Of a stretch of 48,188 nt of DNA, positions 13,312 to 33,038 are shown in pieces (position 1 is the stretch's first letter; every line of letters starts with the position of its first letter). Source of the stretch: Acidobacteriota bacterium (GTDB taxonomy: Bacteria > Acidobacteriota > Vicinamibacteria > Vicinamibacterales > CAVVIG01). The position numbers and the translations under genes were made by a program. The stretch covers positions 1 through 48,188 of the forward strand of contig JAGWRA010000100.1 of assembly GCA_028876655.1 (NCBI GenBank), written 5' to 3'. The notes beneath the pieces were generated by a model. It saw nothing but the letters and a program-made list of their open reading frames with translations. It was not told the DNA's origin and ran no database searches.

Positions 13312-13342
13312 CGCGAGACCGGGGCGGGACTGGAGAACACGG

Positions 13343-13951
13343 ATGAGTACGTGGCGACGCGAGCCGGTGAAGTGGTTCGCCTACCGTCTCGGCCTGAAGG
13401 AGGCGCGGACGCAGACAACCGAGGCCGAGCGCGCCTGCCTGTCGCGTCACGCCCTCGGCCGCCGCAACGTCGTCGTCATCGGCGTCGCCTACGGCGTGTC
13501 GTCGCGCGTGTTGCGACGCGCCATGCACCGGGGCGGCACGCTGACCGGCATCGACACCCGACGGCCGGGGCCCGTGACCGAGAGCGTCGAGCGGCTGATC
13601 ATGCTGAAGGAAGTCGGCAAGGTGCCGTACGGCCACTTCGTGCTCGAGCAGCGGCCGAGCGCCGAGGTGGCCGCCGGCTGGACGACGCCGATCGACTTCC
13701 TCTTCATCGACGGCGATCACAGCTGGACCGGCATCGACACCGACTGGCGCAGCTGGAGCCCGCTCGTCGTCCGCGGCGGGCTCGTCGGCGTGCACGACAG
13801 CCGCGAGATGCCAGGCCGGCCCGTCCTCGACAGCGTCCGCTACACCCGCGAGGTGATCCTGCAGGACCCGGCCTTCACCGTGCTCGAAATGATCGACGGT
13901 CTGACGATCCTCGAACGGATCGCCGCCGTCCCGCCCGCCACACGCACGTGA
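13343..13951 (+). CDS. Class I SAM methyltransferase (paralogue 2)
   Basis: This 202-residue product is the second copy of the small Methyltransf_24-like enzyme encoded at 10527-11123. It shares YRLGLKEARTQTTEAER, DFLFIDGDHSWTGIDTDW, GGLVGVHDSRE and VLDSVRYTREVILQDPAF. It starts at ATG 13343, with GGAGAACACGG upstream as a possible ribosome site. Two paralogues in one operon suggest methylation of two positions or two different sugars. The GTGA overlap with the carbamoyltransferase gene indicates coupling of the two decorating enzymes. Confidence 0.84.
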   Translation: MSTWRREPVKWFAYRLGLKEARTQTTEAERACLSRHALGRRNVVVIGVAYGVSSRVLRRAMHRGGTLTGIDTRRPGPVTESVERLIMLKEVGKVPYGHFVLEQRPSAEVAAGWTTPIDFLFIDGDHSWTGIDTDWRSWSPLVVRGGLVGVHDSREMPGRPVLDSVRYTREVILQDPAFTVLEMIDGLTILERIAAVPPATRT

Positions 13952-15729
13952 ACATCCTCGGCCTCAACGCCTATCACGGCGACGTCTCCGCCGTGCTCGT
14001 CTGCGACGGCCGCCTCGTGGCGGCGGTCGAAGAAGAGCGGTTCGTCCGCATCAAGCACGTGGCCGGCTTTCCCGCCGAGGCGATCCACGCGTGCCTCCGG
14101 ATCGGCGGCCTTCCGGCGTCGGCCATCGATTGCTGGGCGGTGTCGCGCGACCCGCGCGCGCATCTCTGGCGGAAGGCGGCGTTCCTGCTGCGGCAGCGGC
14201 CGCACGGCCTGGCGGGGGACCGCGCGAGGAACCTCGTGCGGGTCCGAAACCTGCCGGGGCGTCTCGCCGGGGTCGTGGGGCTGGAGCCGGCCGACATCCG
14301 TCCGCGCCTCCGGTTCGTGGAGCACCATCCGGCGCACCTCGGCAGCGCGTTCTTCGTCAGCCCCTTCGAAGAGGCGGCCGTCTGCGCGATCGACGGCTTC
14401 GGCGACTTCGTCAGCACGTCGTGGGGCGTGGGCCGTGGCCCGTCGATCGACGGGATCGAGCGGGTGTTCTTCCCGCACTCGCTCGGGATGCTGTACCTGG
14501 CGGTCACGCAGTACCTCGGCTTCCCGCACTACGGTGACGAGTTCAAGGTGATGGGGCTGGCGCCGTACGGCGCGCCGGATTTCGCCGACCGCCTGCGGTC
14601 GGTCGTGTCGCTTCGGCCTGGCGGGCGCTTCACCCTCGACCTGCGCTTCTTCCGGCACGCCTCCGAAGGCGTGGCGATGACGTGGGAATCGGGCGCACCC
14701 ACGATCGGTCCCGTGTTCACCCCGGCGCTCGAGGCGCTGCTCGGTCCGGCCCGCCATCCCGACGATCCGCTGGAACCGCGACACGAGGCGATTGCCGCCT
14801 CGCTGCAGCGCGTCTTCGAGGAGGCGGTGTTCCACGTCCTGCGTCACGTCCGGCAGGCGACGGGGCAGCGGCGACTGTGCCTGGCCGGCGGCTGTGCGAT
14901 GAACAGTGTCGCCAACGGGAAGGTGCGCGAACAGACGGGATTCGACGAGCTGTTCCTGCAGCCGGCGGCCGGCGACAACGGCACGGCGCTGGGTGCCGCG
15001 TTCGACGCCTGGCACGCGGGCGGCGGCGCCCGCGGCTTCGTGATGGAGCATGGCTACTGGGGGCTCTCCTTTCCGGACGACGAGATCGAGCAGGCGATCC
15101 GGGAGGAGGCCGGGCGGCTGCAGGAGATGGGCTGCACGGTCCGGCGCGAGTCGGATCCCGGCGCGCTGTGCCGCGAGACGGCCTCGGCGCTCGCCGCCGG
15201 CCGCATCGTCGGCTGGTTCCAGGGGCGCATGGAGTGGGGCGCCCGCGCGCTCGGCAACCGCAGTATCCTGGCCGATCCGCGCCGCGCCGACATGCGCGAC
15301 ATCCTGAACGCGAAGATCAAGTTCCGCGAGAAGTTCCGCCCGTTCGCCCCGTCGATCCTCGTCGAGGCGGTCGATGAGTACTTCGAGGGGGCGGTCCCCG
15401 ATCCGTTCATGATGCAGGTGTACCCGATCCGGCCGGCGCAGCGCTCGCGCGTCCCCGCCGTCACGCACGTCGATGGATCGGGCCGGCTGCAGACGGTCAG
15501 CCGGACCTCGAACCCGCTCTACTGGCAGCTCATCAGCGCGTTCGCCGCGCAGACCGGCGTGCCGATGCTGCTGAACACGTCGTTCAACGAGAACGAGCCG
15601 ATCGTGCATCGACCGGCCGAAGCGCTCGACTGCTTCCTGCGGACCGGCCTCGACGTGCTCGTGCTCGGCTCGATGGTGCTCGAGAAGGCCGGCATCGGCG
15701 CTGCGGCCGCCCCCGGCCCGCCGGCATGA
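13948..15729 (+). CDS. NodU/CmcH-type carbamoyltransferase
   Basis: GTG 13948 (GTGA overlap) gives 593 residues, the usual size for this family. The N-terminal Kae1-like domain starts MNILGLNAYHGDVSAVLVCDG and has VEEERFVRIKH, HHPAHLGSAFF and AICAIDGFGDF-like strands; CLAGGCAMNSVANGK follows. The C-terminal Carbam_trans_C domain is clear from FQGRMEWGARALGNRSIL, KFREKFRPFAPSIL and LLNTSFNENEPIV. Family members use carbamoyl phosphate and ATP to carbamoylate a hydroxyl, as in Nod factors, antibiotics and polysaccharides. Here an O-carbamoyl decoration of the exopolysaccharide is likely. Confidence 0.92.
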   Translation: MNILGLNAYHGDVSAVLVCDGRLVAAVEEERFVRIKHVAGFPAEAIHACLRIGGLPASAIDCWAVSRDPRAHLWRKAAFLLRQRPHGLAGDRARNLVRVRNLPGRLAGVVGLEPADIRPRLRFVEHHPAHLGSAFFVSPFEEAAVCAIDGFGDFVSTSWGVGRGPSIDGIERVFFPHSLGMLYLAVTQYLGFPHYGDEFKVMGLAPYGAPDFADRLRSVVSLRPGGRFTLDLRFFRHASEGVAMTWESGAPTIGPVFTPALEALLGPARHPDDPLEPRHEAIAASLQRVFEEAVFHVLRHVRQATGQRRLCLAGGCAMNSVANGKVREQTGFDELFLQPAAGDNGTALGAAFDAWHAGGGARGFVMEHGYWGLSFPDDEIEQAIREEAGRLQEMGCTVRRESDPGALCRETASALAAGRIVGWFQGRMEWGARALGNRSILADPRRADMRDILNAKIKFREKFRPFAPSILVEAVDEYFEGAVPDPFMMQVYPIRPAQRSRVPAVTHVDGSGRLQTVSRTSNPLYWQLISAFAAQTGVPMLLNTSFNENEPIVHRPAEALDCFLRTGLDVLVLGSMVLEKAGIGAAAAPGPPA

Positions 15730-16946
15730 AGGTCTGCTTCTTCAACCGGTCGTACTGGCCGGACGTGGCCGCGACCGGACAGCTGCTGACCGAGCTGGCC
15801 GAGGATCTCGTCGCGCGCTTCGGCTGGGACGTGACGGTCGTGGCTGGACGCCCGCTGCGCGGCGGCACCGGCCGGCCCGGTCTCGCCGCGTTCGGCCGCG
15901 AAGAGCGCCACGGCGTCCGGATCTTCCGCGCGAACGGGACGACGCGGCCTCCGGCGCGGTTCGCCGGACGGGTGACGAACTACCTGAGCTATTTCGCGTC
16001 GGCCTGCCTCGCCGGCCTGCGCGTCCCGTCGCCCGACGTCGTCGTCGCGCTCACCGACCCGCCGATCATCGGTCTGGCCGCGCTGACGATGGCGCGGCTC
16101 CGCGGCGCGAAGTTCGTCTTCCTGTGCGAGGACGTGTTCCCCGAAGTGGCGGTGCTGCTCGAGGACTTCCGGAGCGGCGCCGTGAACCGGCTGCTCGACC
16201 GGCTGAATCGCCTGCTGCTCGCCCGGGCCGATGCGATCGTCGCGCTCGGCGAGCGCATGAAGCGGCGCCTGGTCGAGGAGAAGGGGGCCCGCCCCGATCG
16301 GATCACGGTGATCCACAACTGGGCCGACTGCCAGGCCATCGAGCCGCGGCCGAAGTCGGCGGCGTTCGCCGCCGCGCACGGCCTCGAGGGACGCTTCATC
16401 GTCATGCACTCCGGCAACGTCGGCCTCTCCCAGGCGCTCGATACGCTGCTGGACGCGGCGGCCCTGCTTCGCGACACGCCGGAGGCGATGGTCGTCATCG
16501 TCGGCGACGGGACGAAGCGGGCGGCGCTCGAGGCGCGGGCGGCGCGCGAGGGGCTGTCCAACGTGCGGTTCCTGCCGTACCAGCCGAAGGAGCAGCTCGC
16601 CGACTCGTTCTCGGCGGCCGACCTGTTCCTCGTCTCCCTGAAGGCCGGCCTCGAGGGCTACATCGTGCCGAGCAAGCTCTACGGCATCCTGGCCGCCGGC
16701 CGCCCTTTCATCGCTGCCGTAGATCCGAGCTGCGAGGTGGCCGTCATCGCGCGCGCCGACGATTGCGGTGTCGCGGTGGCGCCGCAGGATCCGGCCGCGC
16801 TGGCGGATGCCATCCGCGCGCTGGCCCGCGATCCGGCGCGCGTCGCCCGTCTCGGGGCCAACGCCAGGCGCGCGGGCCTGCGCTTCGATCGGCGGGTCGC
16901 CGTCCAGGCCTACGCCGATCTGTTTCGGACACTTGGACAGGAATGA
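15726..16946 (+). CDS. WbuB/WcaI-like family 4 glycosyltransferase
   Basis: ATG 15726 (ATGA overlap) gives 406 residues. The start, MKVCFFNRSYWPDVAATGQ, and the C-terminal EGYIVPSKLYGILAAGRP are characteristic of the WbuB/WcaI subgroup of GT4. The middle contains CEDVFPEVAVLLE and VIHNWADCQAIEPRPKS, then MHSGNVGLSQALDTLLDAA. Such enzymes often add fucosamine, fucose or related sugars early in O-antigen or colanic-type repeat assembly. It closes the tightly coupled run of genes. A 156-base gap with a hairpin follows before the initiating sugar transferase gene. Confidence 0.9.
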   Translation: MKVCFFNRSYWPDVAATGQLLTELAEDLVARFGWDVTVVAGRPLRGGTGRPGLAAFGREERHGVRIFRANGTTRPPARFAGRVTNYLSYFASACLAGLRVPSPDVVVALTDPPIIGLAALTMARLRGAKFVFLCEDVFPEVAVLLEDFRSGAVNRLLDRLNRLLLARADAIVALGERMKRRLVEEKGARPDRITVIHNWADCQAIEPRPKSAAFAAAHGLEGRFIVMHSGNVGLSQALDTLLDAAALLRDTPEAMVVIVGDGTKRAALEARAAREGLSNVRFLPYQPKEQLADSFSAADLFLVSLKAGLEGYIVPSKLYGILAAGRPFIAAVDPSCEVAVIARADDCGVAVAPQDPAALADAIRALARDPARVARLGANARRAGLRFDRRVAVQAYADLFRTLGQE

Positions 16947-17102
16947 AGCTGCTCGGCAGCACTGTCGCGGATCGCAGGATCCGGAGCGTCAGCGACGGCA
17001 GCGCATGGGGGTGCCGCCTTCGCGCCGAGGCGCTTCGGCGAGCCTCGCCGTAGCTCGCACGAGGGTTCCGCGAGCGGAGGCGGGGGGCCCCATGCGAACT
17101 GA
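16947..17102 (+). other. Intergenic stretch with TTCG-loop hairpin
   Basis: This is the first real gap in the polysaccharide operon. It has no convincing ORF. A hairpin pairs CGAGGC (17026-17031) with GCCTCG (17042-17047), enclosing an inner GC-TTCG-GC tetraloop and a two-base bulge. No T-tract follows, so it is more likely an mRNA processing, attenuation or REP-like element than a simple terminator. A purine-rich run (GGAGGCGGGGGG) near 17076-17088 could serve as part of the ribosome site for the next gene. Confidence 0.4.
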
Positions 17103-17738
17103 ATGATGCCAATCACCACCAAGCGCCTCTTTGATCTGGCCCTGTCCGGAGTCGGCCTCGTGCTGTCGTCACCGCTGTGGCTGCTCATCGCCCTGGCGGT
17201 GAAGCTGGAAGACGGCGGTCCGGTCTTCTTCAATCAGGAGCGGGTCGGATATCGCGGCCGGATCTTCCGGGCGCGCAAGTTCCGGTCGATGGTGCCAGAC
17301 GCCGAGGCGCGCAGCGGCCCCGTGCAGGCCACGGCCGGCGACCCGCGCGTGACCCGCGTCGGCCGGTGGTTGCGGGCGACGGCGATGGACGAGTTGCCGC
17401 AGCTGTGGAACATCTTCATCGGCGACATGAGCTTCGTCGGGCCACGTCCGCTCCGGCCCGGCGAGATCGAGACGGCTGGTGACGGGACGGTCATCCCGCT
17501 GTCGGCCATCCCGGGTTATGAGGCCCGCCACGCCGTCCGTCCAGGGCTGACGGGGCTGGCCCAGGTGTACGCCCCGCGCGACCTGCCGCGGGTCCGGAAG
17601 TTCCGGCTCGATCGGCTCTACGTCCGTCGGGCCGGGTTCTGGCTGGACCTGAAGCTGATTGCGCTGTCGTTCTGGATCACCGGCCTGGGTCGATGGGAGC
17701 ATGGCGACCGGAAGGTGCGGCGGCCCCGTGCCGTATAA
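17103..17738 (+). CDS. Polyprenyl-phosphate sugar-1-phosphate transferase (initiating)
   Basis: The 211-residue product starts at ATG 17103, or at the adjacent ATG 17106. It is the catalytic core of the bacterial sugar transferase family. It has an N-terminal re-entrant hydrophobic helix (KRLFDLALSGVGLVLSSPLW), then FNQERVGYRGRIFRARKFRSM, the catalytic Asp-Glu pair in AMDELPQLWN, and MSFVGPRPLRPGE. It transfers a sugar-1-phosphate from an NDP-sugar to undecaprenyl phosphate, the first step in assembly of the glycan. It is the short, PglC-like form without the extra N-terminal transmembrane domain of WcaJ. The stop codon overlaps a TATAAT box for the next operon. Confidence 0.92.
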   Translation: MMPITTKRLFDLALSGVGLVLSSPLWLLIALAVKLEDGGPVFFNQERVGYRGRIFRARKFRSMVPDAEARSGPVQATAGDPRVTRVGRWLRATAMDELPQLWNIFIGDMSFVGPRPLRPGEIETAGDGTVIPLSAIPGYEARHAVRPGLTGLAQVYAPRDLPRVRKFRLDRLYVRRAGFWLDLKLIALSFWITGLGRWEHGDRKVRRPRAV

Positions 17739-17739
17739 T
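17734..17739 (+). promoter_or_regulatory. Candidate -10 box (TATAAT) for the lasso locus
   Basis: A perfect TATAAT lies across the stop codon of the sugar transferase gene, in otherwise very GC-rich DNA. Initiation about 7 bases downstream would give a leader of about 30 bases before ATG 17777. No clear -35 hexamer was seen at the usual distance. Confidence 0.45.
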
Positions 17740-17776
17740 TGAAGGGCGCTCAGCACCTTTGCGTCTCACGACCGAC

Positions 17777-18946
17777 ATGCCACACGATGCCCTCGACGTG
17801 CTCGTCGTTGGCGGGGGTCCGGGAGGACTCCACGCCGCGCGACGGCTGGCCGAAGCCGGCTACGGCGTCGCGCTGTTCGAGGAGCACCCGGAGATCGGCC
17901 GGCCGGTGCACTGCACCGGCATTCTTGCGCCTGAAACCTTCACCGAGTTCGGCCTGCGGGACGCCGGGCTGGTCAACACGCTCACCCACGTCCGGTTCCA
18001 CTCGCCGTCCGGCATCGAGATCGAGTACTCCACCCCCATCGAGGAGGTGGCCGTCGTCGAGCGGCCGCTGTTCGACCGCAGCCTGGCCGGCCAGGCGCTC
18101 GACGCCGGCGCCGACCTCCGCTGTGGCGTCCGGATCACTGACGTGGCCGTCGAGGACGACGGGGTCGTCGTCACCACGCGCGACGGGGACGTGGTGCGGG
18201 GCCGCGTGGGCATTCTCGCCTGCGGCGCCAACTACGCCCTGCAGCGGCGCCTGGGCCTCGGCTTTCCCCGTTCGTACCTGCAGTCGGCGCAGGCGGAGCT
18301 GCCCGCCGGCCGGCCCGGCGACGTCGAGCTGTACTTCGGGACCGACGTGGCGCCCGGCGGCTTCGGCTGGGTGGCGCCGGTGCTGCGCGACGGGAGTGCC
18401 GTCGCGCGCGTGGGCGTCATGTGCGCGCGCGACGCCATCGGGCACTTCCGTGCGATCCTCGATCGCGTGCGCGACCGCTGGGCGCTCGGCGACGTCTGCG
18501 GCGAGCCCCGGCAGAAAATCCTGCCGCTCGGCCCGATCGACAGGACCTATGCGGATCGCCTCGTCGCCATCGGCGACGCCGCCGGCCTGGTCAAGCCCAC
18601 GACCGGCGGTGGGATCTACTACAGCCTGGTCAGCGCCGAGCTGGCCGCACAGGTGATCGGCCGCGCACTGGCCGCCGGCGACCTCTCGGCGCCGGTGCTC
18701 GCCGAGTACGAGCACCGCTGGCGCGAGCGGCTCGCCGACGAGATCGAGGCGCAGGGACGGCTCAGGGCCCTGGCCGAGCAGATGGACGACGCCCAGATCG
18801 ATGCGCTCTTCGATCTGGCCCGCACCGATGGCGTGATGCCGATCGTCCGCAAGACCGCCCGCTTCAACCAGCACCGCAGCCTCATCCTGGCGCTGCTGAA
18901 GCACCCGCCCGTCCGGCGGATCCTGTACCGGACCCTCATGGGGTGA
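17777..18946 (+). CDS. FAD-dependent oxidoreductase, geranylgeranyl reductase family
   Basis: ATG 17777 gives 389 residues; TTG 17759 is a possible alternative start. The N-terminal dinucleotide motif is VLVVGGGPGGLHAARRLAEAG (Gly12-Gly17 region), followed by the acidic ribose-binding EEH. HCTGILAPE matches the substrate-side motif of geranylgeranyl reductases, and IGDAAGLVKPTTGGGIYYS (about residues 265-283) is the family's second FAD motif. Known members reduce isoprenoid chains or act as related flavoprotein reductases and halogenase-like oxidases. The GTGA overlap with the PqqD-like gene ties it to the lasso locus, where it may tailor the peptide. Alternatively it could saturate a polyprenyl carrier for the glycan system just upstream. 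Confidence 0.82.
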   Translation: MPHDALDVLVVGGGPGGLHAARRLAEAGYGVALFEEHPEIGRPVHCTGILAPETFTEFGLRDAGLVNTLTHVRFHSPSGIEIEYSTPIEEVAVVERPLFDRSLAGQALDAGADLRCGVRITDVAVEDDGVVVTTRDGDVVRGRVGILACGANYALQRRLGLGFPRSYLQSAQAELPAGRPGDVELYFGTDVAPGGFGWVAPVLRDGSAVARVGVMCARDAIGHFRAILDRVRDRWALGDVCGEPRQKILPLGPIDRTYADRLVAIGDAAGLVKPTTGGGIYYSLVSAELAAQVIGRALAAGDLSAPVLAEYEHRWRERLADEIEAQGRLRALAEQMDDAQIDALFDLARTDGVMPIVRKTARFNQHRSLILALLKHPPVRRILYRTLMG

Positions 18947-19275
18947 CCGCCGTCACCCTCCTTGCGCACGCCATGCCCGCCGACAAGCTGACCCTGGACT
19001 CTCGCGCCGTGCCGAGCGACGCCGTCGTCGCCCGGGAGCTCGACGGCGAAACGGTGCTGCTGAACCTCGACACCGGCATCTACTTCGGTCTCGATGCCGT
19101 CGGCACGCGAATCTGGGGCCTGCTGAGCGCCGGCGAGCCACTCGACCGCGTGCTCGCCGTGCTGGTGGCCGAATACGACGCCGACGCGGCCGTGCTCGCG
19201 CGCGACCTGCTGGACCTCGTGAGACAGTTGAACGGCAAGGGGCTCGTGACCGTCAGGAGTGCCGCCGGCGCATGA
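18943..19275 (+). CDS. PqqD-like RiPP recognition protein (lasso B1)
   Basis: The 110-residue product starts at GTG 18943 (GTGA overlap); ATG 18973 is an alternative giving 100 residues. The PqqD fold is evident from VLLNLDTGIYFGLDAVGTRIW (strand-turn-helix), LLSAGEPLDRVLAVLVAEYD, and a final helix with DLLDLVRQLNGKGLV. Stand-alone PqqD-like proteins are RiPP recognition elements. In lasso pathways the B1 protein binds the precursor leader, at its YxxP region, and presents it to the peptidase and cyclase. The cyclase and precursor genes follow directly. Confidence in the family is high; the lasso assignment rests on this context. Confidence 0.88.
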   Translation: MTAVTLLAHAMPADKLTLDSRAVPSDAVVARELDGETVLLNLDTGIYFGLDAVGTRIWGLLSAGEPLDRVLAVLVAEYDADAAVLARDLLDLVRQLNGKGLVTVRSAAGA

Positions 19276-21149
19276 GTGCCATCGCGGGCGTGCTGCGGTT
19301 CGACGGTGCGCCGGCCGACGCCGCACTGCTGGCGCGCATGCTCGACAGCATGCGTCACCGCGGGACCGACGGCCGCGGCGTGTGGACGGCCGACGGCGCT
19401 ACCCTCGGCACCCTCGCGCGTCACACGACGCCGGAATCGGTGGGCGAGCGCCAGCCGCTGGTCTGCGAGGATCGCGGGCTGGTGCTCGTGTTCGACGGCC
19501 GGATCGACGACCGCGAGGCGATCGCCCGCCGGCTCGAGGCGGACGGCTTCCCGGTGCGCGGCGGGACCGATGCGGAGATCGTCCTGCGGGCCTGCGAGCG
19601 GTGGGGATCGGCCTGTCCGGCGCATCTGCTCGGCGACTTCGCCTTCGCCATCTGGGATCGCGGGCGGCGCCGGCTCTTCTGCGCCCGCGACATCATCGGC
19701 GTCCGGCCGCTCTGCTACCGGACGACCGCCTCCGGCCTGCAGTTCGCCTCCGAACCCCAGGCCCTGCTGCAGGACGCCGGCTTCGGCCCTCGCCCGAACG
19801 AGGGGATGGTGGCGGAGCATCTCGCAGGCATCGTCACCAGCCGGCGCGAGACCGTCGTCGACGGACTCATGCGGCTCCAGCCCGCCCACCTGCTCGAGGC
19901 CGGGCCGGAAGGCATCAGCGAGCGCCGCTACTGGACGCCTGATCCCGCGCGGACGATCCGCTACCGGACCGACCGCGAGTACGAAGAGCACCTGCGCGCC
20001 GTCTTCCGCGACGCCGTGCGCGACCGGCTGCGCGCGCGCACGCGCGTCGGCGTGATGCTGAGCGGCGGCCTCGACTCCTCGTCGATCGCCGGCATGGCTG
20101 CGGTGCTGCATCGCGACGAGCCCGGCGTGCCGGCCCTCGAGACCGTCTCGCTGACCTTTCCTGGGCGGCCGTGCGACGAGGCGCCGTACGCCGAAGCCGT
20201 GAACCGGATGTGGGGGATCCGCGGGCATGCGATCCCGGACCCGCGCGTCCCCTGGGTTCCCGTGGCCGAGCGCGAGGCGCGACGGTATGCGGATGTCCCC
20301 GGCACGCCGAGCCTGACCAACGCCGAGGTGTTCGCCGCGCTGCCCCGGACGGCCGTGCCGCCGGTCTTCCTGTTCGGCGCCGGTGGCGACGAGTGGCTGC
20401 GCGGCAGCCCCGCGCGCTATGCGGATCTGCTGGGCGCCGGCCGGATCGGCCGGCTCGCGCGGCAGCTCGCGCACGACGCCCGAACCGATGACTTCGTCGG
20501 CTGGCCCGCCGCGCTGCGGCAGGCCGTCTGGCCGCTGTTGCCGGAGCCGCTGCGCCGCATGCTCAAGACCGCGGTCCGGCACGACGTCGTGCCGCCGTGG
20601 GTGGCGCCGGACCTGGTGACCCGCACGGCGCTGCGCGATCGCCTGGCGCAGTTCCGCACCGGGCTCCAGTTCGCCAGCCGCGCGCAGATCGACGGCTACC
20701 AGGAGGCGACCAGCGGCGAAGCGACGCTCGCCATGGAGCGGCTCGACCGGGCGCTGGCGTTCCTGGGCGTGGAAGGACGTCACCCGTTCCACGACCGGCG
20801 CCTGATCGAGCTCGCCCTGGCATTCCCGCCCGATCAGCTCTGGCGTGACGGGCAGGCCAAGTCGCTCACGCGCCGGGCGTTTGCCGATCTGCTGCCGCCG
20901 GCCGTGCGCCAGCGCACGGGCCGGCCCGACTACGCGCACCTGATGGCCGACGCGCTCGTGGCGCACGGCCAGGCGGCCACGCAGGCCTGGCCGGCCGTGA
21001 CGGCGCGAGGATGGGTCGTGAAAGACCGCCTGGCGGCCGAGCACGCGCGCGTGACGCGCCGCCTGGGGACCGCTTCGGGCCGGGCCTGGCAGTCGGTCTG
21101 GTCCGTCTGGGGCGCTTGTGCGGTCGAGTGCTGGGCGAGTACGCTCTGA
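19272..21149 (+). CDS. Asparagine-synthetase-like lasso macrolactam cyclase (C protein)
   Basis: ATG 19272 (ATGA overlap) gives 625 residues. The N-terminal class II glutaminase-like domain (residues 1 to about 200) contains MRHRGTDGRG, LGDFAFAIWD and CARDIIGVRPLCY. It begins MSAIAGV rather than MCGIAGV, so the nucleophile Cys is absent. The C-terminal AsnB domain has the ATP-pyrophosphatase loop MLSGGLDSSSIAG (Ser264 to Ser270 region). Loss of the glutaminase Cys is typical of lasso cyclases (McjC type), which adenylate an Asp or Glu side chain and form the macrolactam with the core N-terminus. The adjacent B1 and precursor genes support this over asparagine synthesis. RPDYAHLMADALVAHGQ and the C-terminal helices are intact. 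Confidence 0.88.
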   Translation: MSAIAGVLRFDGAPADAALLARMLDSMRHRGTDGRGVWTADGATLGTLARHTTPESVGERQPLVCEDRGLVLVFDGRIDDREAIARRLEADGFPVRGGTDAEIVLRACERWGSACPAHLLGDFAFAIWDRGRRRLFCARDIIGVRPLCYRTTASGLQFASEPQALLQDAGFGPRPNEGMVAEHLAGIVTSRRETVVDGLMRLQPAHLLEAGPEGISERRYWTPDPARTIRYRTDREYEEHLRAVFRDAVRDRLRARTRVGVMLSGGLDSSSIAGMAAVLHRDEPGVPALETVSLTFPGRPCDEAPYAEAVNRMWGIRGHAIPDPRVPWVPVAEREARRYADVPGTPSLTNAEVFAALPRTAVPPVFLFGAGGDEWLRGSPARYADLLGAGRIGRLARQLAHDARTDDFVGWPAALRQAVWPLLPEPLRRMLKTAVRHDVVPPWVAPDLVTRTALRDRLAQFRTGLQFASRAQIDGYQEATSGEATLAMERLDRALAFLGVEGRHPFHDRRLIELALAFPPDQLWRDGQAKSLTRRAFADLLPPAVRQRTGRPDYAHLMADALVAHGQAATQAWPAVTARGWVVKDRLAAEHARVTRRLGTASGRAWQSVWSVWGACAVECWASTL

Positions 21150-21200: not shown

Positions 21201-21210
21201 GAGGAAAGGA
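21201..21210 (+). promoter_or_regulatory. Strong ribosome binding site for the precursor peptide
   Basis: GAGGAAAGGA lies 8 bases before ATG 21219. It is the most purine-rich ribosome site in the locus and fixes the start of the small gene, rather than the in-frame ATG at 21171. It fits a peptide made in excess over its enzymes. Confidence 0.7.
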
Positions 21211-21218
21211 CGAGACGC

Positions 21219-21389
21219 ATGACCTCCCGAGAGAAGCCGGAGCAGGTGCAGCCGGCGGCGTCGCCGCGCGACGGGCGGAAGCCGTACCGCAGGCCGCAGC
21301 TCGTCGAATACGGCAGCGTGGCCAAGCTGACGCAGACCGGCGGGACGACGAAGAACGAGCCGCACGGCTTCAAGATGCCCTGCCTGTGA
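21219..21389 (+). CDS. Lasso-family RiPP precursor peptide (A protein)
   Basis: This 56-residue peptide starts at ATG 21219 behind GAGGAAAGGA. The leader has the lasso motif YxxPxLxxxGxxxxxT: Tyr23, Pro26, Leu28, Gly32 and Thr38. Thr38 should be the conserved residue at position -2, placing cleavage after Gln39. The predicted core is TGGTTKNEPHGFKMPCL (residues 40-56). Its position 8 is Glu47, which is right for an eight-residue macrolactam with Thr1. If cleavage instead followed Thr40, the ring would be Gly1-Glu7. The tail has Pro-His-Gly-Phe-Lys-Met-Pro-Cys-Leu, with bulky Phe and Met as possible plugs and a lone Cys. It sits between the cyclase and methyltransferase genes. Confidence 0.85.
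   Translation: MTSREKPEQVQPAASPRDGRKPYRRPQLVEYGSVAKLTQTGGTTKNEPHGFKMPCL
21336..21386 (+). other. Predicted lasso core peptide segment
   Basis: This segment encodes residues 40-56 of the precursor. The boundary is set by the rule that Thr occupies position -2 in lasso leaders. Ring-closing Glu is at core position 8. Cleavage one residue later is the main alternative and would make a seven-residue ring. Confidence 0.6.
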
Positions 21390-21423: not shown

Positions 21424-22563
21424 GTGTCGCTGATCGTCGACGAACATCGCGAATACCTGTCGGACGAGGTCCGGCTGGCGGCGCTGAACGCCGCCATCGA
21501 GTCGACCGTCCGCCCGGGCGACGTCGTGCTGGATCTCGGTGCCGGCACCGGCATCCTCGGCCTCATGGCGGCGCGAGCCGGAGCGCGTCACGTCTACGGC
21601 CTCGAATGCGGCATCATCGTCGGCCTGGCGTGCGACGTCGCACGGGCCAACGGATTCAGCGACCGCATCACCTTCATCCAGGAACTCTCCACCCGCGCCG
21701 AGCTCCCCGAACGGGTCGACGTCATCGTCACCGACGCGATGGGGCGCTTCGGCTTCGAAGCCGGCCTCCTCGAGTACCTCCCCGACGCCCGGCGGCGCTT
21801 CCTGAAGCCGGGTGGGCGCACCGTGCCGATCGGCGTGGATCTCTGGGTCGCTCCCGTCGAGCACGCGGCCCAGTGGGGACGCGTGACGTTCTGGGAGAGC
21901 CGGCCTGCCGGGTTCGACTTCGGCGCAGCGCGGCCTCTTGCCGGCGGCACCGGGTATCCGCTGCGGCTCGAGGCCGCCGACCTGCTGGCCAACGGCGCAC
22001 GGATCGCCTCGCTGGACCTGGCCGCCGACGAGCCGGGAACGGTGCAGGGACGCGTGGAGCAGACCGTCCTGCGCGCCGGCACCCTGCACGGGATTGGCGG
22101 ATGGTTCCACGCCGAGCTCGCGCCCTCGATCGGCTTCACGAACGCGCCGGCGGCCGAGTGCCGGATCAACCGGCGTAACGTCTTCTTTCCCGTCGAGCGG
22201 CCCGTGGCCGTCGAGCGCGGCGATCGGATCGAGATCGCCCTCCGCATCCGTCCGGTGGAGCTGGTGGTGGCCTGGCAGGTCACCGTGACCGGACCGGACG
22301 GCGTCGTGAAGGCCCGCTGCCGCCAGTCGACGTTTCAAGGGATGCTCGTGCCGGCCAGCGACGTGCGGCGCACCGATCCGGCGTCGGTGCCGGAGCTGTC
22401 GGCGGCCGGACGGGCGCGGCGGTCGGTGCTCGAACTCTGTGACGGCCGGCGCGCCCTCGCCGAGATCGAAACCGAGGTCTGGCGCCGCCATCCCGATCTG
22501 TTCCCGAGCCACGCGCAGGCCGCGGTCTTCGTGGCGGAGGTCCTCACCCGGTATGCCGTTTAG
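21424..22563 (+). CDS. PRMT-like SAM methyltransferase with PqqD-like C-terminal tail
   Basis: GTG 21424 gives 379 residues. HREYLSDEVRLAALNAAI followed by VVLDLGAGTGILGLMAARAG (about 35-54) is the arrangement of protein arginine methyltransferases. VIVTDAMGRFGFEAGLLEYL occupies the place of the PRMT double-E hairpin, but its first Glu is Asp. FLKPGGRTVP and a beta-barrel-like domain follow. The last about 50 residues (RRSVLELCDGRRALAEIE onward) look like the helical half of PqqD/RRE proteins. It may methylate the lasso peptide (core or N-terminus), guided by its tail. It starts 34 bases after the precursor stop, so it is in the same transcript. Methylation of another protein remains possible. 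Confidence 0.8.
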   Translation: MSLIVDEHREYLSDEVRLAALNAAIESTVRPGDVVLDLGAGTGILGLMAARAGARHVYGLECGIIVGLACDVARANGFSDRITFIQELSTRAELPERVDVIVTDAMGRFGFEAGLLEYLPDARRRFLKPGGRTVPIGVDLWVAPVEHAAQWGRVTFWESRPAGFDFGAARPLAGGTGYPLRLEAADLLANGARIASLDLAADEPGTVQGRVEQTVLRAGTLHGIGGWFHAELAPSIGFTNAPAAECRINRRNVFFPVERPVAVERGDRIEIALRIRPVELVVAWQVTVTGPDGVVKARCRQSTFQGMLVPASDVRRTDPASVPELSAAGRARRSVLELCDGRRALAEIETEVWRRHPDLFPSHAQAAVFVAEVLTRYAV

Positions 22564-23518
22564 CGTCCGGACCTACCGCCTGGCGGATCTCGTGATGGCG
22601 AGCAACCGCCCGCTGCCGGAGCTGGTCGAGACCGGTGGCGAACCGGCTGACTGGACGTTCGTGGCCCATCCATCGCAGACCGCGGCGCCGAGGGGCCACT
22701 GGTTCCACCAGTGGCGGTTGCCCAGCCGCCGTCTCTGGCTGTCGCTCGGACGCGCGGCCGGCGGGGAGTACCTGCTGCGCTTTCACCACCTCGCCGACTT
22801 CGAGCTGGACGTCGGCGAGCGCCGGATCGCCTGCCACCCGACCGGCGGCACCGCGCCGGCGACGATCCGTCACCTCCTGCTCGACCAGGTGATGCCGCTC
22901 GTCCTCGGGACGCCGCCGCGGCTGGCGCTGCACGCGAGCGCCGTGCGCACGCCGCAGGGCGTGGTGGCCTTCGTCGGCCCGGCGGGGGCGGGGAAGTCGA
23001 CGCTGGCGGCCGCGCTCGGCCGGTCGGGCTGGGACGTCATGGCCGACGACTGCCTGATCGTCGAGACGATGGGCGCCGGTGCCGTGCAGGCCGTGCCGAG
23101 CTATCAAGGGTTGCGGCTATGGCAGGACAGTCTGCGCGCCCTCTACGCGGGGCCCCGGCCGCGCGGCCGCCGCGTGGCCGGCTACACCCGCAAGCAGCGG
23201 CTCGATGCGGCGGCGGCCGGACTGACGTTCTGCTCGGCCCCCGCGCCGCTCGCGCGGCTCTACGTGCTGGGGCGCTCCCGCCGGACGGCGCCCGCGGTCC
23301 AGGTCGAGCGGCTCTCGCCCCGCGAGGCGGTCATCGAACTGCTGCGGTTCACCTTCCATCTGGATGTCGAGGACCGGCCCGCCGTGGTGGCGCGCTTCGA
23401 CCGGGCCGCCCGGATTGCGGAACGGGTGTCGATCCGGCGTCTGCGGTTCCAGCCGGACCTGAATCGACTCGACCAGTGGCGGGCGGCCGTGCAGGCGGAC
23501 ATGGCGTCCGCACCGTAA
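22553..23518 (+). CDS. HPr-kinase-like protein associated with the lasso locus
   Basis: ATG 22553 overlaps the methyltransferase stop by 11 bases and gives 321 residues. A P-loop, FVGPAGAGKSTLAAALG (about residues 139-155), follows the HASAVRTPQGVVAF strand, and MADDCLIVE matches the Asp-Asp region of HPr kinase/phosphorylase C-terminal domains. Such HPrK-like proteins recur in lasso gene clusters, and one (paeninodin type) phosphorylates a C-terminal Ser of the peptide. Here the core ends in Leu and has no Ser, so the substrate must be a Thr, another tailored group or another protein. The full canonical HPrK signature loop was not confirmed. This is the last gene before a strong hairpin. Confidence 0.82.
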   Translation: MPFSVRTYRLADLVMASNRPLPELVETGGEPADWTFVAHPSQTAAPRGHWFHQWRLPSRRLWLSLGRAAGGEYLLRFHHLADFELDVGERRIACHPTGGTAPATIRHLLLDQVMPLVLGTPPRLALHASAVRTPQGVVAFVGPAGAGKSTLAAALGRSGWDVMADDCLIVETMGAGAVQAVPSYQGLRLWQDSLRALYAGPRPRGRRVAGYTRKQRLDAAAAGLTFCSAPAPLARLYVLGRSRRTAPAVQVERLSPREAVIELLRFTFHLDVEDRPAVVARFDRAARIAERVSIRRLRFQPDLNRLDQWRAAVQADMASAP

Positions 23519-23632: not shown

Positions 23633-26600
23633 TTACCAGTTCCACCAGTCGCGCTCGTCGCGGTCCCGCCCGTGGTCGTCGTGACCCGGCTTGCCGTGGG
23701 TCTCGGGAGGCGGACCGGGCACCGGCTCGAACGCGCCGGTGTTGCTCCCGATGATCAGGTTGCTGCCGTCGTGGTTCGTCAGCATCTGCAGCAGGACGAG
23801 CCCGTTGACGGTCAGCCGCCGGTCCTTCGGCGCCCGTGTCTTGATCGCGATCGTCGTCCGGTTCTTCCGGCCGTCGTAGTCCGCCTGGACTTCGACCTTG
23901 TCCCTGCCCGTCCCGATGGTGAAGTCCTGATGCAGCTCCTTCAGGCTCCCGTCGCGGTTCAAGGCCCATTCCACGTGCTTCGTCGCCTCACGCGGATAGA
24001 TGATCGGTTGCGTCACGCCGTCCACCGTGTACTGGACGCTCAAGACCTCCACGTGCACGTCGTGGCCCGCCGTCTTCACCCCCTCCACCAGCGTCAGCAC
24101 GTTGCCGCCGGCGTCTTCGATCCGGTAGACGCGGATGACGGCCTTGCCGTGCCACCACGTCTTCGGGAACGGGCCGAACCAGCGGCCGCTGCGCGGGTCG
24201 CGGCAGTAGACGCCGTCGCGCTCCTCGCGCGTCGAGGACACCGGCGCGATCGGACCGGTCGCCGTCCCGGTGGTCGGATCCCAGGCGAAGACCTGCACCG
24301 TCCGGGTCACCGGGTCGAACTGGTTGTAGGCCTCGGGCGGCGCGAACGAGATCGTGATGGGGGCGGTCGTCGCCTGGTGCCCGACGTGATCGATCGCCGT
24401 GGCGGTGACGACCTTGCCCGTATCGGCGGTCGTCGCCACGTACGGGTCGCAGGTCTCCTGCACGACCGTGCCGTTCACCGACACCGTGCAGCCGGCCAGC
24501 CCGGAGCCGGCGTCGGACGCGGTGAACGTGATCGTCTCGGTGCCGCCGCTCTTCGTCACCGTCGGGGTGATCGTCGGCGGCAGCGTGTCCACGTAGAGCG
24601 CCGGCGAGGCACCGGCGACCCCGTTGCCGGCCAGGTCGGCGAACGTGCGCGTGACGATCTGATTCGCGCCGTCGCTGACCGGCACCGTGCTGATGGCCGT
24701 CAGCGTTCCGTTGGCGAAGCCCGAGAGCGCGTCAGTGGCCGTGAAGGTGACGTTGACCACGGCGGGATACCAGACGTGGCCCCCGGGATCGGTCCAGGTC
24801 GCCGGCTGCGTCGGCTGAACGGCGATGTTCAGCGTCGGCGCGGTCGTGTCGATGTTGATCGGCGAGGAATAGGTCGCCGGAGCGGAGACGTTGCCTGCCA
24901 CGTCGGTGAACGTCTGGCTCGCCACGGTCTGGTTCTTCCCCTCCGTGCCGAGGGTGAAGAACCGGCTGGCCTGCAGGCCGCCGTCGATGTGCGTCGTCGC
25001 GTCAGCGGCGGGGAAGCCCGACAGCTGGTCGGTCGCGGTGAACGTGAGGGTGACGGCACTGTTGTTCCAGCCGTTCGCGTTGGCGGCCGGCGTCCGCGCG
25101 ATCGGGCCGGCGACCGGCGCGGTCTTGTCCAGGCTGATCGCCGGACTCGTGTAGCTCTGCGGGCTGTAGTCCGCCGAGGTGTTGTCCGCGTTGTCGACCA
25201 GGGTCACGACGTGCCGCTGGTCCACCCCTTCCGCGGTGAACGTCAGCGGCGACGGGGGCGTGGCGCTCTTCACGCCCGACAGCGCGTCCTGCGCCGTGTA
25301 GGCCACGCCGACGTTCGTGTTCCACCAGTACCGGAGGGTGCCCCCCGGGATCTGCTGGAGGCCGGTGGCGGCCGGCGACACGGTGAACTTCTGCACGTAC
25401 GGCGGCGACTGGTCGAGCTGGATCACCAGCGACTGCCACGCGCTGGTGTTGCCCGCCTGGTCCAGCGCCCGGTAGTAGAGCGTGCTCGTGCCATCCTGGT
25501 TGACCGTGGCGGTGGCCGTCGCACCGCTCACCACGATCGGGAAGAACGGCGATCCGGGGGTCACGATCGACTGCTGGCCGGTGAAGTAGTACTGGATCTC
25601 CTTCACGCCCGATCCGCCGGGCTCGTCGACCGCCGTGAGGGCGATCTGCACGGGCGTGTTGTACCAGGGCGGCGCCTGCGGACTGGCCGGGCTCGGAGCC
25701 GCGGTCACCGTCGGCGCGGTCGTGTCACCGCCGGCCGGCTGCACGGCCACCGTCACCGGCAGGTGGGTCGCCGTCACCTCCTGGCTGGTGCCCGAGCCGC
25801 TCAGTACCGTCCCCGTCGCCTGCGCCGAGAACGACAGCGTCCCGGCCGTCGTCACGTCCAGCGGCACCTGGTAGCTGAACGTCACGGTCGAATCGGTCCC
25901 GGCCGTAACGTCGCCGCCGGGCGGCGACTGCGTCCCCAGCGACACCGGCGCGCCCGTCAGGTCCGTCAGCGTCGCGGCCACTGACACGTTGCTCACGGTG
26001 CCGGACGAGGCGTGCAGCGTCACCGTGAAGTCCAGCGTCGTGCCCGGGGTGACGGCACCCGTCACCGGCACGCCGTTGGCGGTCACGGCAACGTGCGGGA
26101 TGGCCAGCGACGGCCGATCGAAGACCAGCACGAACTGCGTCGACGGATCCGGGAACGTGTAGGTCGGGTCGTAGGTCCCGGTGCTGACGATCAGCCGCAG
26201 GTTCGCATCGAACGCCAGGCCGCCCGGCGAGAGGAACTGGATCGGCGTATTGCTCCCGCTGATCGTGAAGTCCTCGGCGGCGGTCTGCCCGGTGTAGTCG
26301 ACGCTGAAGAAGTAGATCACGCTCGTCCCCGCGTCGGCGACCAGGACGCGGCCGTCATCGGGCTGCACGAGGATGTCGATGGGGAAGTTCATCGGCCCGG
26401 TGGGATCCGACGCCGGGTTCGTGAAGCTGAACAGGAACGTCCCTGTCGGGCTGTAGGCCAGCACCTGCGCCGGTGTGGTGCCGGTCGCCGTGTCCGTCAC
26501 CAGGAAGTTGCCGGTGGCCGGGTCGATCGCGACAGCCAGCGGTGCGTGCAGCTGTCCGTTCCCGTTGCCGGTGGCCGTTCCCCCGAAGGTGAACAGCGGC

Positions 26601-27256
26601 TGCAGCATCGAGTTGAACACCTGGACGTCGATCACCGAGGTCGGCTTCGTGAAGTTGCCGCTGCTGACGATCGCGATCAGGCCCGTGTCGGGCACCCCGA
26701 TGGCCGTGCCGGGAGTCATCGCGATCCCCTTCGGCCAGTCGAAGCCGCCCAGGGCGTTGGTGGGTTGCCCCGATCCGTCGAGCAGCAGGTTGTCCGGCGT
26801 GCCGTCCTCGTTGAACACCTTCACGACGTTGTGGTACGTGTCCGACACGACCAGGTGCCCGTTGGCGTCGACCTTCACCTGCGCCGGCGAGTCGAAGTCG
26901 AAGCTCGTCGCCGAGCCGATCCGCAGCGTCTCCACGCCCGTGGCCGCGTCGAACGCCCGGACCATGTTGTTCCAGGTGTCCGCCACGACGAGGTCACCCG
27001 CCAGGGGCAGCGGGGAGCCGTTCAGGTTCGTCGCCGGGACGACGGAGACGCCGGAAGGAAAGATGAAGCCGGGATCGGGTGTGGGGACGGCCGGCAGGCC
27101 GGAGATGCCCGGAATGGCGAAGACGACCTGCCAGACTTCCGTGGACGCCTGCGCCCGGAGCGCTGTCGGCAGCAGTGCAGGAGCACTCAGGGCGAGGGCG
27201 ATGAGAGCAGCCGGAATGAAGCGGCGGGTTCGAGTGCGGACGACCGGTCCAGTCAT
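23633..27256 (-). CDS. Secreted NHL-repeat / Ig-like multidomain protein (smaller paralogue)
   Basis: The start is taken at ATG 27256, matching the paralogue's MTRP start; GTG 27265 would add three residues. The 1207-residue product has a Sec signal peptide ending near LRAQAS (residues 1 to about 35). NHL propeller repeats run through about residue 330 (GDLVVADTWNNMVRAFDAA, HLVVSDTYHNVVKVFNED). A CARDB-like segment follows (VTPGTTLDFTVTLHASSG), then five Ig-like/OmpL47-like modules recognised by repeated TAPxV, WYNTPV, TATDxLSGF and DxAGN strings. A C-terminal domain has YCRDPRSGRWFGPFPKTWW and ends in a His/Asp/Arg-rich WWNW tail. The likely role is extracellular or outer-surface binding. 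No anchor motif is recognised. Confidence 0.85.
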   Translation of the reverse strand: MTGPVVRTRTRRFIPAALIALALSAPALLPTALRAQASTEVWQVVFAIPGISGLPAVPTPDPGFIFPSGVSVVPATNLNGSPLPLAGDLVVADTWNNMVRAFDAATGVETLRIGSATSFDFDSPAQVKVDANGHLVVSDTYHNVVKVFNEDGTPDNLLLDGSGQPTNALGGFDWPKGIAMTPGTAIGVPDTGLIAIVSSGNFTKPTSVIDVQVFNSMLQPLFTFGGTATGNGNGQLHAPLAVAIDPATGNFLVTDTATGTTPAQVLAYSPTGTFLFSFTNPASDPTGPMNFPIDILVQPDDGRVLVADAGTSVIYFFSVDYTGQTAAEDFTISGSNTPIQFLSPGGLAFDANLRLIVSTGTYDPTYTFPDPSTQFVLVFDRPSLAIPHVAVTANGVPVTGAVTPGTTLDFTVTLHASSGTVSNVSVAATLTDLTGAPVSLGTQSPPGGDVTAGTDSTVTFSYQVPLDVTTAGTLSFSAQATGTVLSGSGTSQEVTATHLPVTVAVQPAGGDTTAPTVTAAPSPASPQAPPWYNTPVQIALTAVDEPGGSGVKEIQYYFTGQQSIVTPGSPFFPIVVSGATATATVNQDGTSTLYYRALDQAGNTSAWQSLVIQLDQSPPYVQKFTVSPAATGLQQIPGGTLRYWWNTNVGVAYTAQDALSGVKSATPPSPLTFTAEGVDQRHVVTLVDNADNTSADYSPQSYTSPAISLDKTAPVAGPIARTPAANANGWNNSAVTLTFTATDQLSGFPAADATTHIDGGLQASRFFTLGTEGKNQTVASQTFTDVAGNVSAPATYSSPINIDTTAPTLNIAVQPTQPATWTDPGGHVWYPAVVNVTFTATDALSGFANGTLTAISTVPVSDGANQIVTRTFADLAGNGVAGASPALYVDTLPPTITPTVTKSGGTETITFTASDAGSGLAGCTVSVNGTVVQETCDPYVATTADTGKVVTATAIDHVGHQATTAPITISFAPPEAYNQFDPVTRTVQVFAWDPTTGTATGPIAPVSSTREERDGVYCRDPRSGRWFGPFPKTWWHGKAVIRVYRIEDAGGNVLTLVEGVKTAGHDVHVEVLSVQYTVDGVTQPIIYPREATKHVEWALNRDGSLKELHQDFTIGTGRDKVEVQADYDGRKNRTTIAIKTRAPKDRRLTVNGLVLLQMLTNHDGSNLIIGSNTGAFEPVPGPPPETHGKPGHDDHGRDRDERDWWNW

Positions 27257-27350
27257 GATGACCACCAGACCGCCAGAGAAGCTGGTCGCCGGTCAGCTCG
27301 TGGGGATCGGGCCTGGACAGCGGCACGAAGTCTTCATGAGGCGTTAAGAA

Positions 27351-27516: not shown

Positions 27517-30500
27517 TCAGCGCCGCCCCTGACCGCCCGTCGTCTTGCCGTTGCCGGTAGAGTTCCCGTTGCCGCCCGTCCCGGTCCCCTTCGAGTTCCC
27601 GTTCCCAGTCGAATTCCCGTTGCCGCCGGTCCCGTTGCCAGTGCCGGTCGAGTTCCCGCTGCCGGTCGAGCCGCTGCCGCCGGTCGAACCGTCAGTCCCC
27701 GTCCCGCCGCCCGTCACCAGCAGCTTGCCGGTGCTGGTGTCGATGGCGGTGTCGGGCTGCACCTGGCCGCTCCGGACGACGGTCTGCGTGCCACTCGCTG
27801 AGGTGATCGTCAGCGTGGTCTGGTTCTGCGCGACGTTGTAGCTCGCCTGGACCTGGACCTGACTGTCCCCCGAGCCGATGGTGGCCGACCAGTTCCCAGG
27901 CGCATCGCCATGCTTGATGTCGACCTGGGTCCCGTCGTTGTGACCCTTGTCGCCATCGTGCTTGTCGCCCTGATGGCTCTGGTCGTGATGGTCGCCCTGG
28001 TCGCCCTGCTGCGACTGGCTGTTGCTCTGGTTCTGATCGTCGTTCGAGTTGGCGTTGCTGCTCGAGTTGCCATTGCTGCTCGAGTTCGCGTTGCCGTTCG
28101 AGCTGCTGTTGCCGTTCGAGCTGCTGTTGCCGTTCGAGCTGCTGTTGCTGTTCGAACTGCTGTTGCCGTTCGAGCTGCTGTTGCTGTTCGAACTGCTGTT
28201 GCCATTCGAGCTGCTGTTGCCGTTCGAGCTGCTGTTGCTGTTCGAGCTGCTGCTGCTGTTCGAGCTGCTGTTGCTGTTCGAGCTGCTGTTGCTGTTCGAG
28301 CTGCCGTTGCCGTTCGAGCTGCTGTTGCCGTTCGAACTGCTGCTGCCGTTCGAGCTGCCGTTGCCGTTCGAGCTGCTGCTGCCGTTCGAACTGCTGCTGC
28401 CGTTCGAGCTGCCGTTGCCGTTATCGGTCGAGCTGCCGCCGGTGCTCTGGCCAGAGCTCGTGCCGCCCGTGCCGCTGCCGGAGCTGCTGCCGCCAGACGC
28501 TGAGCCGAAGCTGCCACTGCTGCCGCCGCCCTGCGGCGCGTAGCCGTAGGAGTAGCTGCTGTTGTCCCCGTGGGCCTGGCCGTCGTCGTCGTCGTTGTCG
28601 TTGCCCGAGTTGTCGCCGTCGTCGGTCGGGCCCGGCACCAGGGTGATCACGTTCGTGTTGCTCTGGATGATCAGGTTGCCGCCGTCGTGGCTCGTGACCA
28701 TCTGGAGCAGCGTCAGGCCGTCCACCGAGACCTGCTGGTTCTTCGCGGCCGGGGTCTTGATCCGGATCGTCGTCTGGTCCTTGTTGCCGTAGTAGTGCGC
28801 CTGGACCTCGACCCGGTTCCGACCCTCACCGATGGTCATGTCCTGGTTCAGTTCGCGCAGGCTCCCGTCCTTGTTCAGCGCCCATTCGAACTTCTTCGTC
28901 GCGTCGGGCGGATAGATCGTCGCCTCGGCGGTGCCGTCGACCGTGTACTGGAAGCTCAGCACCTCCACGTGCACTTCGTGGCCGTCGGCCTTCACGCGCT
29001 CGACCAGCGTCAGCAGGTTGCCGGCGGCGTCCTGGATCCGGTAGACGTTGACCGTCCCCTTGTCGCCCTCGTCCGACCACCACTTCGTGGGGAACGGTCC
29101 GAACCAGTTCCCGTCGCGCGAGTCGCGGCAGTAGGTGCCGTCGGCCCTCTGCTGGGTCTGCGTCACCGGGGTGACCGGGCCGGTCGAGGTCTGCGTCGTG
29201 GGATCCCACGCGAAGACCTGCACGGTCTGCGTCGCCGGGTCGAACTGGTTGTACGCCTCGGGCGGCGCGAACGAGACGGTGATCGGCGCCGTCGTGGCCT
29301 GGTGCCCGACGTTGTCGGTGGCCGTGGCCGTGATGACCTTCCCCGTGTCGGCGGTGGTCGCCGTGTACGGATCGCAGGTCTGCTGCACCACAATGCCGTT
29401 CACCGACACCGTGCAGCTGGCCAGCCCCGAGCCGGCGTCCGCCACCGCGAAGCTGATCGTCTCGTTGCCGCCGCTCTTCGTCACCGTCGGGGCGATCGTC
29501 GGCGGCAGCGTGTCGACGTAGAGGGCCGGCGACGACCCGGAGACCGTGTTGCCCGCCTGGTCGGCGAAGCTCCGCGTGATGACCTGGTTCGCGCCGTCGC
29601 TGACCGGCACCGTGCTGATGGCCGTCAGGGTGCCGTTGGCGAAGCCCGACAGCGCGTCGGTGGCCGTGAAGGTGACGTTCACGACGGCGGGGTACCAGAC
29701 GTTGCCGTTCGGGTCGGTGTAGGTCGACGGCTGCGTCGGCTGCACCGCGACGTTCAGCGTCGGCGGCACCGTATCGACGCTCACCGACACCGTCGACGGC
29801 GTCGACGTGTTCCCCGCCAGATCGGTGAACGACTGGGTGACCGCCTGCCCCTGCCCGTTCGACGGGACCGCGATCGTGCGCTGCGCGGTGAGGCCGCCGG
29901 CGGTTCCCGACACGGCGTCGGCGGCGGAGAAGCCCGACAGGTTGTCGCTGGCGTTGAAGACCACGCTGACCGGCACGTTGTACCAGCCGTTGGCGTTCGC
30001 CGCGACCGTCGCGCCCGTGGCGGTGTTGATCGTCGACGTACTCGTGACCGTCGGGGCCACCGTGTCGACGTTGATGCCCGACACCGAGGTCGAAGCCGTG
30101 TTGCCCGCCAGGTCGCTCAGCCCCAGGCTCGCCGACTGGTTCGCGCCGTCCGTGAGGGTCGTCGTCTTCTGGCCCTGCAGGTTGCCGGCCACGCCGTTGG
30201 TGGCGTCGGCCGCCGAGAAGCCCGACAGGTTGTCGGTGGCCGCGACCTTCACCGTCACGGGCACGTTGAACCAGTTGTTCGCGTTGGGCGTAATCGTCTG
30301 GCCGCTGGCGTTCAGGTACGACGTCCCGGTGATCACCGGAGCGGTCGTGTCGATGTTGATCGCCGACGAGTAGGTGGCCGTGGCCGAGGCGTTCCCCGCC
30401 ACGTCGGTGAACGTCTGGCTCGCGACGGTCTGGTTCTTCCCCTCGGTGCTGAGAGTGACGGCCCGGCTGCCCTGCAGCCCGCCGTCGAACCCCGTCGTCG

Positions 30501-32763: not shown

Positions 32764-33038
32764 AATGTCTGGGGACGATTGGTGACGCTGCATCGTGCGA
32801 TCGCTGGGGAGCAGAGTGCCCGCGGACGATCCCGCCGATGCCTTCACCAAGTGAACAATCTGTCCTATAAAGTCACTGAGAATTATCGTCGCCTGCGGCG
32901 ATCTGCGTCAAGGGTAATCGGCTGGTTTCCGAGAAAATTCAACGTTTTATCGATTACTTTTCCGAGATTGAATTTACGCTTCTGTTCGGCGACATTCGCC
33001 ATTTCTTTGCCATCCGAAGCCGGACCTGGTGAGCCTTC
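32764..33038. other. Divergent AT-rich intergenic region
   Basis: This 275-base region separates the large secreted-protein gene (minus) from the nucleotidyltransferase gene (plus). The stretch 32850-33010 is markedly AT-richer than the surroundings and must hold promoters for both directions. No ORF is credible here. Confidence 0.6.
32862..32871 (-). promoter_or_regulatory. Shared upstream box GTCCTAYAAA (copy 2)
   Basis: The minus-strand reading is TTTATAGGAC, 99 bases before ATG 32763. It matches the box before the smaller paralogue at nine of ten bases and similar spacing. Confidence 0.4.

Follow-up and report, generated by a model that had tools for sequence, protein, structure and literature searches.

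The open reading frame at positions 21219-21389 of the analyzed DNA is, with good confidence from sequence comparison, the gene for a lasso peptide precursor in which the amine of Thr1 would be joined to the side chain of Glu8. Among the homologues of this precursor, a C-terminal Cys-Leu dipeptide goes together with a gene for a methyltransferase (MT1) predicted to adopt the PRMT fold, and this association points to an undescribed finishing step. The window, that is, the whole stretch of 48,188 nucleotides that was analyzed, corresponds to the entire contig C43, one of the 281 contigs that make up a 4.19-Mb assembly. On the plus strand, the genes follow each other in the order sugar transferase, FAD protein, B1, C, precursor, MT1 and HprK-like kinase, with the following features:

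17693-18946, plus strand: geranylgeranyl-reductase-like FAD protein, context (TIGR02032, 187.5 bits, over cut-off)
18973-19275, plus strand: B1, PqqD-type leader-binding (RRE) protein (PF05402, 59.7 bits, cut-off 23.4)
19272-21149, plus strand: C, asparagine-synthetase-like lasso cyclase (PF00733 and GATase domains; NF033535, 393 bits, cut-off 525)
21202-21210, plus strand: ribosome-binding-site-like AGGAAAGGA, 8 nt 5' of the ATG, read from the sequence
21219-21389, plus strand: lasso precursor gene (A), 56 aa plus stop (leader profile, homologue alignment)
21285-21335, plus strand: leader recognition motif YRRPQLVEYGSVAKLTQ, Tyr23-Gln39, with Thr38 at -2 (NF033521; 17 homologues)
21336-21386, plus strand: core peptide TGGTTKNEPHGFKMPCL, register set by homologues
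21336-21359, plus strand: predicted macrolactam of 8 residues, closed between the Thr1 amine and the Glu8 side chain
21381-21386, plus strand: C-terminal Cys-Leu, conserved in MT1-carrying clusters (homologue comparison)
21424-22563, plus strand: MT1, SAM methyltransferase of PRMT fold with an additional three-helix part at the C-terminus (profile, AlphaFold2, Foldseek)
22553-23518, plus strand: HprK-like kinase, whose inferred start codon overlaps the stop of MT1 (TIGR04352, 32.7 bits)

The product of the precursor gene is MTSREKPEQVQPAASPRDGRKPYRRPQLVEYGSVAKLTQTGGTTKNEPHGFKMPCL. The first-pass annotation had read in it a leader of the form YxxPxLxxxGxxxxxT, and the translation bears this out: Tyr23, Pro26, Leu28, Gly32 and Thr38 all stand where they had been placed and, with Thr38 at -2, the core runs from Thr40 to Leu56 and Glu47 becomes core position 8. 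In the alignment of homologues that had been proposed as a check, Thr at -2 is invariant across 17 rows; the precursor carries the complete leader signature of the lasso class. The general leader model NF033521 (lasso_leader_L3) matches residues 23-42 at 25 bits (cut-off 19, E 1.3e-5), and this is the sole above-cut-off match in a profile search of the 4.19-Mb genome; a weak match at C36:43175 (13.2 bits, L197) was rejected because no lasso genes lie nearby. The best named profiles after the general leader model are cyanobacterial, namely, the lasso peptide family NF033528 (23.1 bits against a cut-off of 33) and the cyclase family NF033535, both matched below their curated cut-offs.

The PqqD-type B1 and the AsnB-like C adjoin the precursor gene, as in other members of the lasso class. 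The top NCBIfam matches of B1 are lasso PqqD families, below cut-off. The cyclase retains an SGGLDS motif, and the glutaminase Cys expected at position 2 is a Ser; the SGGxDS motif and this replacement are common to all 13 cyclases that were checked, and such a replacement is expected of enzymes that activate a peptide acid and do not use glutamine. The kinase contains an identifiable P-loop, GPAGAGKST, followed by Asp-Asp, and scores below the cut-off of 200 bits for HprK-related kinase A. Upstream of the lasso genes are polysaccharide genes (glycosyltransferases, a carbamoyltransferase and methyltransferases); positions 12304-18946, directly 5' of the lasso genes, form a polysaccharide-type locus with a sugar transferase, a carbamoyltransferase and the FAD protein, and such a neighborhood recurs in several genera, including beside lasso clusters without MT1. 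The FAD protein was considered as a tailoring enzyme for the Cys end and rejected; given that it also adjoins clusters without Cys-Leu or MT1 (L058, L193), we treat it as context. Searched against plasmid records, the lasso cluster gave no match. Elsewhere in the window, two long, strongly similar open reading frames on the minus strand (23633-27265 and 27517-32850) both contain GQLHAPLAVAIDP and NQFDPVT-like stretches, the latter with a long Ser/Asn/Gly low-complexity tract, and a radical SAM protein with a SPASM domain is encoded at 990-2009.

Homologues of the precursor were detected in 27 of the 193 genomes of the class, and the gene set of the window recurs around them in many genera; a search with the MT1 alignment added clusters in Nitrospira, Acidobacteria, and gammaproteobacterial and deltaproteobacterial MAGs. 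In G048, G064 and G137, the genes for the sugar transferase and the FAD protein come first; B1 and B2 come next, whichever of the two leads, and are followed by C, the precursor and MT1, with the kinase after MT1 where the contig continues and, in some of these, an extra gene in between. In G064, a 491-aa TPR-repeat protein is encoded between B1 and C (L044:6487-7962), and G066 has the same gap. G054 (L047:9691-10275) has a tandem array of three precursor genes, whose similar cores all terminate in Cys-Leu, ahead of a single MT1 and a single kinase.

The register of the core, and with it the predicted ring, is set by these relatives. Those with Gly as the first residue, GGSGTRGD, GTSGTSAE and GASGAFTE in the register of the window, place the cleavage after LT-x, so that residue 1 of the window core is Thr. 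The first-pass annotation had asked whether Glu47 is retained: of the 20 precursors that end in Cys-Leu, 17 have an acid in this place, core position 8, one has it at position 7, one at position 9 and one has none. Outside position 8, acidic residues occupy only 2 of 351 core positions. At a generous acid rate of 11%, the binomial p for the position-8 acid is ~4e-14, a value that is overstated since the rows are related, and yet the family covers several phyla. On the strength of the homologues, a chance origin of the precursor pattern was rejected. Together, the position-8 acid and the near-absence of other acids in the core make Thr1-Glu8 the best candidate for the ring. An acid at positions 7-9, as expected of the lasso class, is thus present in 19 of the 20 precursors including that of the window, and G039 alone lacks it, which by the refuting condition given in the first-pass annotation speaks against a universal ring. 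The G039 precursor (TCGITTKATGNMLRVCL; L042:9230-9405) has an intact leader and Cys-Leu end with no acid at core positions 7-9; it may be inactive, misassembled or of a different type. It adjoins an intact-looking cyclase, MT1 and kinase.

The first residue of the core varies in this family: among the 20 Cys-Leu precursors, it is Thr in 7, Ser in 6, Gly in 4, and Leu, Ala and Lys in one each. Thr1 had been called uncommon. Within the family, this does not hold, as Thr or Ser is the rule (13/20); among characterized lasso peptides it does, in that no Thr1 example was found in the literature searched, which is weak evidence because subscription papers are mostly outside its coverage. The first residues seen in lasso peptides are Gly, Cys, Ser and Ala, to which metanodin adds Asn (PMC12670498); thus, non-Gly first residues are already known, Asn1 being the latest, and Thr1 is without an example in the papers searched.

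The description from which we started had missed the conserved Cys-Leu end of the precursor and the adjoining methyltransferase. The MT1 profile matches PRMT structures with E 2.7e-44, and the AlphaFold2 model (pLDDT 87.6) aligns with PRMTs in Foldseek at TM up to 0.82 of the target, so that a PRMT-type Rossmann domain plus beta-barrel is predicted. In the alignments, the double-Glu and THW loops of PRMTs are not retained: the first Glu corresponds to Asp104, the second is shifted by one and is not invariant, and the THW loop is replaced by RIxRR. The C-terminal part of MT1, suspected from the LELCDG...EIE stretch to be a PqqD/RRE-like domain, found no support as such (probability 0.2% in the comparison with the B1 profile; negative in Pfam). 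Strong MT1 copies (>500 bits against a 12-row profile) are present in 13 genomes of the class, and the MT1 group of the methyltransferase tree comprises 19 rows (support 97/80), 17 of which come from Cys-Leu clusters. A second PRMT-like group (100/100), with members in L045, L048, L176, L177, L178, L181, L184, L192 and L195, comes for the most part from lasso clusters with precursors that lack the Cys-Leu end.

The Cys-Leu end is present in 20 of the 22 precursors in MT1 clusters and in none of the 15 without MT1 (Fisher p 1.5e-8, kinship ignored). On the cyclase tree, the trait requires ~7 changes, at least 3 of them forced by supported branches, which indicates that it is not simply one inherited block. 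When kinship is counted, the supported, independent contrasts of MT1 with Cys-Leu come down to 3, of which ~2.7 agree and none opposes, too few for significance. The clearest contrast lies in one well-supported group of the cyclase tree (100/100): G039, with MT1, ends in RVCL, whereas G042 and G043, in which the kinase adjoins the precursor and MT1 does not, end in RQGP and QRAP, respectively; G033, outside this tree, has the same arrangement as G039. Counterexamples are G062, which has MT1 and a precursor ending in SHMKP, and the L062 MAG, in which a second precursor adjoins an MT1 copy and lacks Cys-Leu. Because Cys-Leu is common to nearly all MT1-associated cores, the C-terminus is the most likely site of MT1 action, and a modification of the Cys thiol or the Leu carboxylate appears moderately likely from these sequence comparisons. 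The broader proposal is that these clusters form a lasso subfamily of their own, with rings that begin with Thr or Ser and an obligatory Cys-Leu end that a PRMT-fold enzyme, its active site rebuilt, converts to S-methyl-Cys or a C-terminal ester; this is more tentative, and we would put it forward as possible rather than probable.

Several alternative explanations need to be considered. The predicted fold of MT1 is that of PRMTs, and in most of the cores a basic residue lies close to the C-terminus, so that, within a genuine lasso route, the enzyme could methylate a Lys or Arg of the tail, with Cys-Leu serving only as a recognition tag. We regard this as unlikely given the altered double-Glu loop, the replacement of THW by RIxRR and the case of L061, where an MT1 of 53% identity accompanies a core devoid of Lys and Arg (SGGVGGGDAMLNSPCL). 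The smaller ring that the first-pass annotation had mentioned as an uncommon alternative, Gly1 (residue 41) to Glu7 with cleavage after Thr40, is the least probable of the readings considered here, even though known lasso peptides most often begin with Gly, L062 has an acid at core position 7 in the standard register and a Gly1-Asp7 ring has a precedent in huascopeptin, to go by a title cited in PMC13352647. This register would place Thr at -1 and Gln at -2, whereas in relatives sharing the leader it is the residue right after LT-x that is Gly; furthermore, three relatives carry Lys and one carries Cys at core position 2, which makes a conserved Gly1-Glu7 ring unlikely.

The Thr1-Glu8 precursor might also belong to a decaying cluster and stay unmatured in this organism, because the leader peptidase B2, which in several relatives is encoded between the FAD protein and B1, was not found on the 48-kb contig of the window in a profile search. 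This appears improbable: the precursor, B1, C, MT1 and kinase genes are all intact with typical codon-position bias, and an apparently intact B2, the only lasso B2 in the genome, is encoded at the very start of another contig (C29:235-762, L009:235-762; 74 bits, cut-off 33). The same separation is seen in G105, where the only B2 is off-cluster on another large contig (1.47 Mb, against 410 kb), and the B2 of G042 is likewise on a contig other than that of the cluster; a distant B2 is therefore not peculiar to the window. That the C29 gene serves this cluster is an assumption, and a binning error could account for its presence, as it lies on a separate contig.

Under the preferred reading, B1 would bind the YxxPxL...G leader and the B2 peptidase encoded elsewhere in the genome would cleave after Gln39; C would then couple the Glu8 side chain to the amine freed on Thr1, and the tail, PHGFKMPCL, would thread through the resulting 8-residue ring. 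MT1 would probably modify the Cys-Leu end, and the HprK-like kinase would probably phosphorylate a hydroxyl residue, for which Thr5 is the most conserved candidate (Thr or Ser at core position 5 in 16 of the 20 Cys-Leu precursors). Both tailoring steps, like cleavage, cyclization and threading, are inferred.

The lasso class itself, its leader, the B1/B2/C machinery, and lasso kinases and methyltransferases are already known. The split-B kinase lassos of the paeninodin type, including BsfA of Bradymonas, share with the window a discrete PqqD-type B1, a B2, an AsnB-like C, a kinase and a YxxPxL leader, and BsfK phosphorylates Ser3 of the BsfA core (PMC10368454; PMC8498205), which sets a precedent for phosphorylation within the ring. 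The window differs from this type in the absence of a C-terminal Ser, in Thr rather than Ile at -2, in Thr/Ser at position 1, in the extra PRMT-fold methyltransferase and in having B2 outside the cluster. A methyltransferase within the cluster is also found in the lassomycin/StspM systems, which form a C-terminal methyl ester; there, the change is at the C-terminus, as is likely here, and StspM is a carboxyl methyltransferase of broad substrate specificity (PMC8498205), a description that sets it apart from MT1 with its PRMT fold and fixed Cys-Leu end. Metanodin resembles the window peptide in its uncultured source and in a non-Gly first residue two residues after the leader Thr but has Asn1 and derives from a single-B proteobacterial cluster of a soil metagenome with no MT1 mentioned; it was established by MS, whereas the window peptide is predicted from genes (PMC12670498). 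A literature search for lasso peptides with an arginine methyltransferase, a C-terminal cysteine or Vicinamibacter gave no match, which is weak evidence as most subscription papers lie outside the coverage.

If the proposed pathway is correct, the window would encode the first Thr1 lasso peptide, so that the known set of ring-forming first residues grows to include Thr, along with a class of tailoring enzyme that is unreported for lasso peptides in the papers searched. In the precursor family, residue 1 is Thr, Ser, Gly, Leu, Ala or Lys while the leader and the frame of the ring stay fixed, which makes the family a natural test set. The link between Cys-Leu and MT1 is a concrete, testable prediction for the MT1 group of enzymes and may aid genome miners in finding such clusters, even those with a distant B2.
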